From contig JANXVZ010000033.1 in NCBI GenBank assembly GCA_025351405.1, forward strand, positions 28,967 through 92,966: a stretch of 64,000 nt of DNA, read 5' to 3'. Below are positions 9,612 to 43,563 of the stretch, piece by piece. Below the pieces are notes generated by a model. That model ran no database searches. It saw only the letters and a list, made by a program, of their open reading frames with translations, and was not told where the DNA came from. Both the position numbers and the translations under genes were made by a program. This DNA comes from Sphingomonadales bacterium (GTDB lineage Bacteria; Pseudomonadota; Alphaproteobacteria; Sphingomonadales; Sphingomonadaceae). Position 1 is the stretch's first letter. Every line of letters starts with the position of its first letter.

Positions 9612-11006
9612 TCAGCCCGCCATCGCGCGCCTCGCCGCTATGCGTCCCTGCACGACATAGGCAATGGCGAGCAGCGCCAACCATGGCACCCCGACGATCC
9701 AGGCGACGTTCCAGAATTGCGTGTCGAAAGCCATCGTCAGCAACAGCGCCGCCAGCAGAATAAGTGCAGCGATCTGCGGCACCGGAAAAAACGGCGATCG
9801 CCGGATCAGCAACGCCGGATCCACCTGGCGACGGAATCGCAAATGGCAGACGAGGATCGCCATCCAGACGAGCACCCCGCCAAACAACGCCATTCCGAAC
9901 AGGTAATTATAGGCGGCAGCAGTCGCATAAGACAGCGAGGCGGTGACCATGATCACCAGCCCCGAGGTGACTATCGCGGCCACCGGCGCGCCGCGCTCGC
10001 TCAGCCGTTCTAGAAAACCGGGCGCCAGGCCGCTGCGCGACAGGGAGAACAACATGCGCGAGGCAAGATAGAGATTGGTGTTCATGCTCGACAGCGCCGC
10101 GGTGACGACGACAAAATTCATGACACCGGCAACGTGGCGGATGCCACCATAGGCGAACAGGCGCACGAACGGGCTTTGCGTCACCACTTTTGCCCCCGCC
10201 TCGGTCCAGGGCAGGAAGCTGACCATGATCCCGAGCGCCAGGACGTAGAACAGGAACAACCGCAGCGCCATCGACCGCAATGCGGCGGGAATAGCGGTGG
10301 CCGGGTCTTCGGCCTCGCCGGACGTGACCGCGATCAGTTCGATGCCGTAGAAGGAGAAGATGGCGATCAGCACGCCGAACCACACGCCGGTCCAGCCGTT
10401 GGGCATAAAACCGCCGGGCAGTTGCGTGAGGTTGTGCAGTCCAATGGCCGGCACGCCGATACCCAGGATGAACGTCAGCCCGAATATGATGAACAGCACG
10501 ATCGCCACGACTTTTATCAGCGCGAACCAGTATTCAAAGCTGCCGAAATTGGCGACCGAGCGCGCGTTGACCCAGATCATCGCAGCGGCAAACCCCGTCG
10601 CCCACAGCACGACCGGAACGTCCGGAAACCAGAACTGCATGAACACACCGGCCGCGACCGCCTCGCCGCCGATGGCGATGACCTGGGCGAACCAATAGGT
10701 GTAGCGCACCATGAAGCCGGCCCAGCGGCCTATGTACATTTCGGCATAGACGCCGAACGACCCCGCTGTCGGGTGGACGACCGCCATTTCGGACAGGCTG
10801 AATACCATAACAACAGCGATGGCGGCGGCGATCAGATAGCTGATCAGCACCGCGGGGCCGGCATAGCCGATGGCGATACCCGAACCCATGAACAGTCCGG
10901 TGCCGATGGCACCACCCAGCCCGATCATGACGATCTGGCGCTGGGTCAGCGCACGCGCCAGCCCGGCTTCGCGGGCGATGGCCGCCGGTGGCGCGGCGTC
11001 GTTCAG
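9612..11006 (-). CDS. amino acid permease (APC superfamily)
   Basis: RQIVMIGLGGAIGTGLFMGSGIAIGYAGPAVLISYLIAA, multiple TM segments; start uncertain: candidate CTG at 11006 overlapping upstream TGA, first ATG at 10928. Confidence 0.88.
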   Translation of the reverse strand: MNDAAPPAAIAREAGLARALTQRQIVMIGLGGAIGTGLFMGSGIAIGYAGPAVLISYLIAAAIAVVMVFSLSEMAVVHPTAGSFGVYAEMYIGRWAGFMVRYTYWFAQVIAIGGEAVAAGVFMQFWFPDVPVVLWATGFAAAMIWVNARSVANFGSFEYWFALIKVVAIVLFIIFGLTFILGIGVPAIGLHNLTQLPGGFMPNGWTGVWFGVLIAIFSFYGIELIAVTSGEAEDPATAIPAALRSMALRLFLFYVLALGIMVSFLPWTEAGAKVVTQSPFVRLFAYGGIRHVAGVMNFVVVTAALSSMNTNLYLASRMLFSLSRSGLAPGFLERLSERGAPVAAIVTSGLVIMVTASLSYATAAAYNYLFGMALFGGVLVWMAILVCHLRFRRQVDPALLIRRSPFFPVPQIAALILLAALLLTMAFDTQFWNVAWIVGVPWLALLAIAYVVQGRIAARRAMAG

Positions 11007-38997: not shown

Positions 38998-39396
38998 TTG
39001 GCGATCGCGCTCATCCTTGTCGCGGTGCTGGCCTGGTGGCTGCACAAGCGCGGCGAACTGCTGCCCAACCTGGCGCGATGGGTCGGCACCGGCGTTGCTG
39101 CGCTGGTCGCGGTCAAACTGGGGGAAGGCGGCCGACTGATACCCGCTGCGATTGTCGCTGCAGCCGGCTGGTGGTGGTGGCAAAAGGGCCACCGGGCCGC
39201 GATCCGCCCGGACCCGGAGGCCGGCGCGCTGGCGCTTCTCGGCCTGCCACCGGGAGCGGGTGCCGAAAGCATCCAGGCCGCTTGGCGCAGCCGCATGGCC
39301 TTCGCCCACCCCGACGTCGGCGGCAGCGTCGAAGCGGCGCAAAAACTGACCGAGGCGCGCGACCTGTTGCTGGCACGGCGGGCAGCGCGGAGATAG
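38998..39396 (+). CDS. membrane-anchored J-domain (DnaJ-like) protein
   Basis: N-terminal TM, ALALLGLPPGAGAESIQAAWRSRMAFAHPDVGGSVEAAQKLTEARDLLL (HPD); TTG start abuts mipZ TGA. Confidence 0.85.
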   Translation: MAIALILVAVLAWWLHKRGELLPNLARWVGTGVAALVAVKLGEGGRLIPAAIVAAAGWWWWQKGHRAAIRPDPEAGALALLGLPPGAGAESIQAAWRSRMAFAHPDVGGSVEAAQKLTEARDLLLARRAARR

Positions 39397-39551
39397 TTGC
39401 CGGCGCAGCGCGCAGCGCGGCGCTTAAAATCGCCATTCCAGCCGATTGCGCTACACCGCAATAGCCAGCGAAGCGGAACCTTAACACCAGCCTGTCATTG
39501 GACCTTGTGAAGTCGAACCCGTAAACTCGGCTGTTCCGAATATAAAAGGCC

Positions 39552-40982
39552 TTGATCCAAGCCATGGCGACCGCAGCAAAACCCCAGCAGGCCCCCGCAC
39601 CCCGGTCGCATCGTTTCGACCCGACGACACTGCGCGAATACGACATCCGCGGGCTGGTCGGCGAAACCCTCGATGAGCCCGATGCCTATGCCATCGGCCG
39701 CGGCTTTGCGACCATCGTGCGGCGCGGCGGCGGTAGCAAGGTGGCGGTCGGCTATGATGGCCGGGCATCGTCGCCGCGCTTCGAGACGGCGCTGTGTCGC
39801 GGGCTCAACGATGCAGGCGTCGATGTCGTGCGCATCGGCATGGGGCCGACGCCGATGCTGTACTACGCCGTCAGCGAACTGGGTTGCGCCGGCGGCGTGA
39901 TGATTACCGGCAGTCACAATCCTCCGGCGTATAATGGCTTCAAGATGGCGCTGGCGAGCGGGCCCTTCTATGGTGCCGACATCCGCGGCCTTGGCGAAAT
40001 GGCGGCCGCCGGCGATTGGGAAACAGGCACCGGCGCCGCGTCGCAGGTCGATATCATGGACCGTTACGTCGACCGGCTGTTGCAGGGTTTCGATGGTGCC
40101 AGCTTTACCATCGCCTGGGATTGCGGCAACGGCGTTGCAGGGCCGGTGGTCGAACGGCTGGTGAAGAAACTGCCCGGCACGCATTATGTGCTGTTCGCCG
40201 AAGTCGATGGAAATTTTCCCAACCATCACCCCGACCCGACCGAGGAAAAGAACCTTGCCGACCTGAAGGCTGCGGTTGCCGAGCATGGCTGTGATTTCGG
40301 GGTTGCCTTCGACGGCGATGCCGACCGGCTTGGCGCGATCGACGGCAAGGGCCGGGTGGTGTGGGGCGACCAGCTTCTCGGCATCCTCGCCGAACCGGTG
40401 CTGAAGGCACTGCCCGGCGCCACCATCATCGCCGATGTGAAGGCCAGCCAGGCGCTGTTCGACCGTATTGCGGCGCTGGGGGGCAAGCCGCTGATGTGGA
40501 AGACCGGGCATAGCCTCATCAAGGCCAAGATGAAGGAAACCGGCTCACCATTGGCCGGCGAGATGAGCGGGCATATCTTCTTCGCCCATGATTATTATGG
40601 CTATGACGACGGCATTTACGCTGCGGTGCGGCTGATTCGCGCCGTGTCGTCGCTGGGCGGTTCGCTGACCGAATTGAAGGACGCGATGCCGGTGATGATC
40701 AACACGCCGGAGCTGCGCTTCCAGTCGTCGGAAGATCGAAAGTTTGCCGTGGTCGCCGAGGTGCTGGCCCGCCTGAAGACCGAAGGCGCCAAGGTCGACG
40801 AGACCGACGGCGCCCGCGTGACCCGCGCCGATGGCTGGTGGCTGCTCCGCGCCTCCAACACCCAGGACGTGCTGGTGGCGCGGGTGGAAGCCCGGGATGC
40901 TGCAGCGCTTGAGCGATTGCAGGCAGAGCTATATGCTGCGCTCGATGCTTCTGGCGTGAAGCCGGTGCTCGCGGGGCATTGA
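39552..40982 (+). CDS. phosphomannomutase/phosphoglucomutase
   Basis: [32 protein letters not shown] (phosphoserine loop), [21 protein letters not shown]. Confidence 0.96.
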
Positions 40983-40996
40983 GACGGCGCTGCTGG

Positions 40997-41075
40997 GCCG
41001 TGTGACGTTCATACGGCATTACAGGGCCATGTGACGTTCATATGGCGCTACAGGGCCATGTGACGTTCATGTTGC
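40997..41075 (+). repeat. 29-nt-period array of three hairpins (2 intact, 1 degenerate)
   Basis: 40997-41017 GCCGTGTGACGTTCATACGGC; 41026-41046 GCCATGTGACGTTCATATGGC; 41055-41075 GCCATGTGACGTTCATGTTGC; 9-bp stem with CGT triloop. Confidence 0.85.
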
Positions 41076-41130
41076 AGTGCACAATAAACGCTTGCATCGA
41101 TCGCCCGCCGGAACTATTGTGCACTGCAAC
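41071..41130. promoter_or_regulatory. perfect 16-bp inverted repeat over phasin promoter; candidate PhaR-type operators
   Basis: GTTGCAGTGCACAATA (41071-41086) and TATTGTGCACTGCAAC (41115-41130); TTGCAT (41092-41097)-17 nt-TATTGT (41115-41120). Confidence 0.7.
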
Positions 41131-41148
41131 AAGATTGTGGAGTTCGCA

Positions 41149-42339
41149 ATGGCAAGCAAGCCGACAGGTTCGCAGAAAAAGCCCAACGCCGTTGGCGCGA
41201 CCAAGCCCGTTGCGCCGGCAACGGTTGCGTCCGCTTCGCCGGCGGCCACCAAGCTTGCGGATGCGAAGCCGCCCGCAATCGCGAAGGCGCCCGTAATCGC
41301 AAAGGCGCCCGTAATCGGAAAGCCGGCAGTCGTTGCCAACCCGGTTCCGGTTGCCACCAAAGCGACCCCAGCTACCGCCCCTTCGGTGCCGGCTGCAACG
41401 ACCAAGCCACCGGTTGCGACGCCCGTCGTTGCCAAGACTTTGGCGCCGCCTGCCCCATCCTCCGCGTCCCCGGCGGCCAAAGCTGTTGCACCGGCCGCCG
41501 TCGCGACCAAGCCCGTCGCACCGGCTGCGGTAAAGGCCCCTGCAGCGGCTACCGTCCAGGCGACGCCGCCTGTTGGCGGCGCGACGCCGGCCAAGCCTGC
41601 CGTCGCCAAGCCTGCCGTTGCAGTGCCGGCAGTCTCGGCACCTGCAGTCGTAGCGGCCGTGCCCGCCAAACCCGTTATCGCTGCCCCGGCTGCTGCCGTG
41701 GCTGTTGCCCCCAAGCCGGCCGCTCCTGCGGTCGCCGCTGCTGCCGGCGCCGTGCCGGCCACTCCGCCCCAGCCGTCGGAGCCGAAACCGTCCGCAAGCA
41801 AGGCTGAAAACGTCATCCCCCTCACTCGCAAGGATAATCCCATGGCCACCGCATTCGACACCACCTCCGAGACCGTCAAGAAGACCGTCAGCCAGATCAA
41901 CACCAGCGCCGAAGCCGCGATGACCCAGGGCAAGGCCGCCATGGAGCAGATCACCGCCAAGTCGAAGGAAGCCGTCGAGCAGGGCATGAAGTCCGTCGAC
42001 GAACTGACCGCCATGGCGCGCGGCAATGTCGAAGCGATGCTGGCCGCCGCCCGCGCCGCCACCTCCGGCCTTGAAACCATCGCCCAGCACGTCAGCGACT
42101 TCTCGCGCAAGAGCTTCGAGGACACGACCGCTGCGGCTCGCGCCATGACCGGCGTCAAGACCCCCAACGAGCTGATGCAATTGCAGAATGATTTTGCCAA
42201 GACGCAATTCGATGCCGCGGTCAGCGAAATGACCAAGATGTCGGAACTGATGCTCAAGCTTGCCGGCGAAGTGTTCGAGCCGATCCAGAACCGCGCCGCT
42301 CTCGCTGCCGAGAAGATGAAGTCGACGTTCACCAAGTAA
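41149..42339 (+). CDS. phasin family protein with long K/A/P-rich N-terminal extension; possible internal start at 41842
   Basis: Low-complexity AKPV-type N-terminus then [67 protein letters not shown] phasin domain. Confidence 0.9.
41281..41316 (+). repeat. 18-bp in-frame tandem repeat in phasin gene
   Basis: gcgaaggcgcccgtaatc / gcaaaggcgcccgtaatc. Confidence 0.85.
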
Positions 42340-42360
42340 GGCGGTCTGACGCGAAAATCG

Positions 42361-42394
42361 AAGGGGCGGGTGCGGCAACGCGCCCGCCCCTTTT
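42361..42394 (+). terminator. strong intrinsic terminator after phasin gene
   Basis: AAGGGGCGGGTGCG-GCAA-CGCGCCCGCCCCTTTT: 14-bp stem, GNRA tetraloop, T-run. Confidence 0.9.
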
Positions 42395-42425
42395 GCATGG
42401 GCGTCGGCGACCGTATATTGTCGAC

Positions 42426-42833
42426 ATGATGCAATTTGAATTGTCGGACCCCGAAACGATGCAAGAGCCGATATTGCCCACCCCGATCCGCGCTGCGGGC
42501 GATGAACGCGAAGGCGGTGGCGGCCAGGGCGGGGGCGGTACCGGGGTCGGCGTCGCCACCAAGACGCGCACCCGCACGGCCAAGCCGGCACTCTACAAGG
42601 TGCTGATGCTCAACGACGATTATACCCCGATGGAATTCGTCGTGCTGTGCCTGCAGCGCTTTTTCAAGATGACCATCGAGGATGCCACGCGGGTCATGCT
42701 GCACGTCCACCAGCGCGGTGTGGGGGTTTGCGGCATCTTCACCTATGAAGTCGCCGAGACCAAGGTCAACCAGGTCATCGACTTCGCGCGGGAACACCAG
42801 CATCCGCTGCAGTGCACGATGGAAAAGGACTGA
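42426..42833 (+). CDS. clpS: ATP-dependent Clp protease adaptor ClpS
   Basis: [62 protein letters not shown]. Confidence 0.97.
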
Positions 42834-42867
42834 TATTGCGACCCACCTTTAACGGGATCGCGCCACG

Positions 42868-43563
42868 ATGACCCGCCTGCCCTCCTTTTCTCCCGGTTTC
42901 CATGCCGTTGTCATCGGCACCGGCGGGATCGGCCGGGCGCTGGCCGAACTGTTGGCGGACGACCCGTCGGTTGCCAGGGTCACCCATCTGGGCCGCAGCA
43001 CCGGCCTCGATCTTGCCGAGCCGGACAGCATTTCCGCCGCCGCTGCGACGCTGCACACCGCCCCCGACCTGGTCATCGTCGCCACCGGGGTGTTGCACGC
43101 CGATGGCCTTGCCCCGGAGCGTGATCTGCGGATGCTGTCCGCCGATGCCTTTGCCCGCAGTTTCGCCGTCAATGCGACGGGCCCGGCGCTGGTGGCCCAG
43201 GCATTTTTGCCGCTGCTTGCCAAGGGTCGCAAGACCGTGTTCGCGGCGCTGTCGGCGCGCGTCGGCTCGATTTCGGACAATCGCCTCGGCGGTTGGCACG
43301 CGTATCGCGCTTCCAAGGCGGCGCTCAACCAGCTCATCCGCACCATGGCGATAGAACAGGCCCGCAAGAACCCCGCCAGCCTCGTTGTCGGCCTGCACCC
43401 CGGCACCGTCGACACCGACTTGTCAAAGCCGTTCCAGCGCAATGTGCGGACCTTGTTCACACCTGAGGAGTCCGCTGGGTATCTGCTCGGCGTCATCGAC
43501 AGGCTGATGCCCGCCGACACCGGCAAATTGTTCGACTGGCAGGGTGAAGTCATCCCGTTCTGA
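42868..43563 (+). CDS. short-chain dehydrogenase/reductase
   Basis: AVVIGTGGIGRALAELL, ALSARVGSISDNRLGGWHAYRASKAALNQLIRTMAIE (YxxxK). Confidence 0.93.
   Translation: MTRLPSFSPGFHAVVIGTGGIGRALAELLADDPSVARVTHLGRSTGLDLAEPDSISAAAATLHTAPDLVIVATGVLHADGLAPERDLRMLSADAFARSFAVNATGPALVAQAFLPLLAKGRKTVFAALSARVGSISDNRLGGWHAYRASKAALNQLIRTMAIEQARKNPASLVVGLHPGTVDTDLSKPFQRNVRTLFTPEESAGYLLGVIDRLMPADTGKLFDWQGEVIPF

Follow-up and report, generated by a model that had tools for sequence, protein, structure and literature searches.

The pgm/pmm-phasin intergenic region

The stretch of DNA analyzed here (the window; 64,000 nucleotides from a draft genome of 3.02 Mb) carries a phosphoglucomutase/phosphomannomutase (pgm/pmm) gene, with its TGA stop codon at 40980-40982, and downstream of it the gene of a phasin, a storage-granule protein (Table 1). 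The named phasins nearest to that of the window belong to Sandarakinorhabdus, Polymorphobacter and Glacieibacterium, and unnamed Sphingomonadaceae are found alongside them. The Pro/Ala/Lys-rich N-terminal extension of the phasin (about 230 aa; 41149-41841) contains an 18-bp tandem repeat and varies in length among relatives, and a short isoform could result from an in-frame internal ATG at 41842 (MATAFDTT...).

Between the two genes, Tandem Repeats Finder (TRF) detects a 29 bp x 3.0 tandem repeat with 86% matches and 0% indels, a copy number that could be under-counted in a draft assembly. Its score of 125 is the highest of any tandem repeat in the window, so we do not regard the array as a product of chance. 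In its own frame, the array has units reading ACGGC...TTCAT, begins 1 nt past the pgm/pmm TGA and runs up to box 1, the first PhaR-type box of the phasin promoter. Six of the 29 unit positions are variable, four of them in an 8-nt unpaired spacer and two in the stem of the potential hairpins described below, where they pair with each other. We rejected a coding repeat because the period of 29 is not a multiple of three and the array lies after the pgm stop codon. An assembly artefact by simple read duplication is unlikely, as each of the three units has different substitutions.

Table 1. Features of the pgm/pmm-phasin locus (positions in the window)
Feature	Position	Strand	Remarks
pgm/pmm gene	39552..40982	+	Four Pfam PGM_PMM domains; upstream of the array
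Unit 1, ACGGCGCTGCTGGGCCGTGTGACGTTCAT	40984..41012		TRF; unit alignment
Potential hairpin 1	40997..41017	+	9 bp, loop CGU; -12.3 kcal/mol, z -4.6; straddles the unit 1/2 junction
Unit 2, ACGGCATTACAGGGCCATGTGACGTTCAT	41013..41041		TRF; unit alignment
Potential hairpin 2	41026..41046	+	9 bp; -10.9 kcal/mol, z -4.6 alone; straddles the unit 2/3 junction
Unit 3, ATGGCGCTACAGGGCCATGTGACGTTCAT	41042..41070		TRF; unit alignment; end abuts the phasin operator
Degenerate third hairpin	41055..41075	+	-3.3 kcal/mol, z -0.4; right arm mostly PhaR-type box sequence
PhaR-type box 1, TGTTGCAGTGCA	41070..41081		Conserved in most pgm-phasin relatives
Probable phasin promoter, TTGCAT-N17-TATTGT	41092..41120	+	Predicted from sequence; below the threshold of the scan tool
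PhaR-type box 2, TTGTGCACTGCA	41117..41128		47 nt from box 1
Phasin gene	41149..42339	+	Pfam Phasin_2; long Pro/Ala/Lys-rich N-terminal extension

The two PhaR-type boxes border the phasin core promoter or overlap it, and such pairs are present in most relatives with the pgm-phasin arrangement. Both are similar to TGCGACGCACAA and TGCGTTGCACTA, which are given as PhaR sites for phaP1 in Bradyrhizobium diazoefficiens (PMC10888616), and the genome encodes one PF07879 (PhaR-family) protein, which would be expected to bind them. While the array thus ends on a PhaR-type box pair in a genome with a PhaR-family gene, its units 1 and 2 are devoid of the TGC-N2-3-GCA core, and the boxes are neighbors and not parts of the repeat. 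Elsewhere (L006:1480-1740; G000 contig C37), we observed a PhaR-type box (TTGTTGCAGTGCACAACAA) together with a second TGC box and a strong, terminator-like hairpin that has a T-run; the stretch may represent a small transcript under PhaR control.

Potential hairpins at the unit junctions

The left arm of each potential stem is located close to the end of a unit, and the right arm consists of the last four bases of this unit and the first five of the next; since the array's own frame is 40984-41070, each right arm is common to two units. When the 29-mer unit is shuffled at constant composition, 0.26% of the shuffles yield a 9-bp hairpin of this kind; on the + strand, the 64 kb contain 24 comparable hairpins.

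Much of what an earlier note had read from this DNA holds, including three copies at an exact spacing of 29 nt, a first stem that starts 14 nt past the stop codon (hairpin 1 from 40997), and a G-C to A-T difference between hairpins 1 and 2 at stem pair 4 that leaves all nine pairs of each in place. It was also correct in noticing one G-U pair on the + strand in each of these two hairpins, for which the energies predicted on the - strand are indeed weaker (-8.0 and -6.6 kcal/mol, compared to -12.3 and -10.9 kcal/mol on the + strand). The third copy has the C-U mismatch that the note described and runs into the operator, but it is not comparable to the others given a second wobble, its low predicted stability and a right arm made of box sequence. 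Likewise, the hairpins stand as potential structures, but they do not follow the natural frame of the repeat, and when folded as a whole the stretch (z = -5.3) is not predicted to give a row of three hairpins: hairpin 1 alone takes the form drawn, and copy 2 pairs through its right arm with the left arm of copy 3.

The array is not a classical terminator, again as the note had it, since the sequence after the stems contains no T-run to complement a GC-rich stem; a terminator scan gave a single + strand match whose tail is merely CGTTCATGTT. An Rfam search over 39000-43000 returned only two matches, both below the gathering threshold (one at 41062-41141 with 27.9 vs 76 bits, the other outside the array), and therefore places the array in no described RNA family.

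Relatives with a single unit

The distance from the pgm stop codon to box 1 is 87 nt in the window and would be 29 nt without two of the units (58 nt), which matches the 30, 32 and 30 nt seen in L076, L077 and L083, the three closest single-copy relatives with the same gene order and the most similar pgm among the relatives used (82, 83 and 80% identical). We therefore interpret the array as a duplication by two units and, from this comparison of spacers, conclude that a locus with one unit is very probably ancestral and that two were added later. The distance between the two boxes is the same or nearly so in the window (47 nt) and these relatives (47, 48 and 47 nt), and it is 45-49 nt in relatives with both boxes; by the pattern used, L105, L110 and L111 have the downstream box only. 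At the position of the phasin promoter, relatives show TTGAAA-like and TATGTT-like hexamers. In most other relatives the stop codon lies 12-69 nt from box 1, with larger distances in L079 (133 nt; 80% identical, with a longer spacer of its own) and L036 (149 nt; with a tandem duplication of its own). In much of the genus (L086-L098), pgm is followed by another gene (reading MSIWATLAGTALGLVIGGPLGALAGAAAGG...), and pgm-phasin synteny has therefore been lost or is not ancestral there.

At three positions (9, 11 and 17), units 2 and 3 agree with each other and not with unit 1, suggesting a split between unit 1 and a younger pair, and unit 1 is probably nearest to the ancestral single copy. The exact ends of the array are explained by its surroundings, because a duplication reaching further to the left would change the gene and one reaching further to the right would change the operator.

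Absence of the array elsewhere

No array follows pgm in any genus member with a readable pgm 3' end (L097 is truncated) or in L105, L106, L110, L111 and L112. Among 23 genus relatives, a single one contains the exact 12-mer TGTGACGTTCAT, within unrelated sequence that forms no array, and a search of 200 other family genomes for arrays of the 21-mer with up to three mismatches found none and only scattered single near-matches. Beyond the family, the exact 20-mer had no match in 84,980 species genomes, a set with one genome per species from which near-identical genomes may be missing, so that a sister strain could carry the array unseen, and there was no match to the exact pattern in viral contigs or to the array in plasmids (blastn).

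The conserved RNA element that the earlier note implied did not emerge from any of these searches, none of which recovered a homologous array with covariation in relatives. The covariance-model search that it proposed fared no better: across 401 genomes of the order, a model (R1) built from the three copies retrieved the array itself and 11 single matches, all of them inside open frames of 150-787 codons and looking like chance singletons, and hence no homologues with covariation in related species.

A probable intergenic minisatellite and its alternatives

Taken together, we consider it likely that the array is a young, genome-specific intergenic minisatellite with self-complementary units that was made by two tandem duplications and most likely has no selected function. 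It consists of near-identical head-to-tail copies with a constant period, and the extra copies are missing from the orthologous loci of relatives. As in bacterial intergenic minisatellites and VNTR loci, a unit of tens of base pairs is repeated in a non-coding, lineage-specific array with constrained borders whose copies diverge by point changes; unlike in these, the unit is self-complementary across the junctions. In the scenario that we propose, one spacer of 29 bp would have separated the pgm/pmm stop codon from the PhaR-type operator and been duplicated twice in tandem, most simply via replication slippage, though both slippage and the order of events are deductions. The ancestral spacer would already have contained a short inverted repeat (ACGGC...GCCGT) and the half-palindrome GTGACGTTCAT, so that copies placed end to end would have joined TTCAT to ACGGC and thereby created 9-bp self-complementary stems at the junctions before diverging at six sites. 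If active at all, the structured 3' tail of pgm transcripts might slow 3' exonucleases or keep readthrough RNA off the phasin promoter, with an effect on pgm mRNA that would probably be minor.

Alternatively, the hairpins could be selected 3'-UTR structures that protect the 3' end of the pgm mRNA or aid Rho-dependent termination ahead of the phasin promoter. Their place and strand fit such a role, as do the G-U pairs and predicted energies that favor a + strand RNA, the z-score of the whole-stretch fold, the compensatory pair and a spacer that is more variable than the stems. However, relatives share the gene order and the short spacer without the array, covariation amounts to a single event, the third hairpin is degenerate, the arms have alternative pairing partners and no U-tract follows, so that we regard this explanation as unlikely. 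Hairpins just past a stop codon with possible 3'-end protection are also known from REP/BIME and other palindromic 3'-UTR repeats, which the array resembles in this respect; unlike these dispersed palindromes, it occupies one locus in the genome, and none was found elsewhere in the sequence searched.

The concentration of four of six variable sites in the 8-nt spacer has a hypergeometric p of 0.033. When the simplest history was simulated under neutrality, 5-7% of runs produced some compensatory pair and 0.6-2.4% produced one while also keeping all nine pairs of both hairpins, values that vary with transition bias. Together with the rarity of such hairpins among shuffled units, these statistics, all computed at one site after the pattern had been seen, weakly hint at a constraint on pairing or at correction by template switching. 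As a single event in a young duplication, the compensatory change is weak evidence for a selected RNA. It also cannot choose between RNA and DNA because a DNA operator with dyad symmetry would change in the same paired way; the constant G-U pair and the energies weakly favor RNA. That the tandem duplication created hairpins de novo at the pgm 3' end and that their pairing is already under selection, i.e., a newborn structured RNA, seems to us quite improbable.

We see even less reason to expect a tandem DNA operator, a possibility raised in the earlier note; here, a dimeric regulator would bind the 21-bp dyads beside the PhaR boxes and modulate the phasin promoter. Dyad symmetry is preserved in two copies and the dyads directly adjoin a conserved operator, but the genome holds no other 21-mer site with up to three mismatches, its near-matches to the 15-bp core sit within long open frames and so outline no regulon, and relatives with the same promoter are without the dyads. 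In addition, a spacing of 29 bp amounts to about 2.76 helical turns and would therefore place the copies on different faces of the DNA. Finally, there is very little to recommend the idea that the arms of the same neutral array were matched without selection by quasipalindrome correction during replication: patterns reported in PMC8794818 fit template switching as a process that creates and maintains hairpins and compensatory changes, and the simplest history takes hairpin 2 through an A.C mismatch repaired by C to T, but this is a single site with neither loop inversion nor a cluster of matched changes, and ordinary substitution would suffice as well.

Tandem duplications at gene ends

A survey of tandem arrays with a period of at least 15 and a score of at least 75, run on stretches of this genome that total about 732 kb and include the window, revealed three arrays with a period that is not a multiple of three, i.e., the 29-bp array, one of 34 bp x4.1 with identical copies and one of 22 bp x2.9, the last two non-coding like the first. 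Four identical 34-bp copies (L166:10520-10658; G000 contig C37) begin at the stop codon of an ORF that we call sodC-like on the basis of its sequence alone; within their unit lies the CCA-bearing 3' end of the neighboring tRNA-His gene (10642-10718, - strand), and it is therefore the tail of this tRNA that is repeated. In another genus of the family, the 3' end of pgm including its stop codon has undergone a 25-bp x3.6 tandem duplication (L036:1213-1303), which has an unrelated unit and is an independent event at the same place. Local duplication at the ends of genes is thus a recurrent type of mutation in this group.

Read as a minisatellite, the array after pgm/pmm is a worked example of how tandem duplication can yield hairpins and an apparent compensatory change without a conserved RNA, and it warns against calling structured RNAs from a single genome. 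Should it have a function nonetheless, it would offer a datable instance of tandem hairpins born from a spacer.
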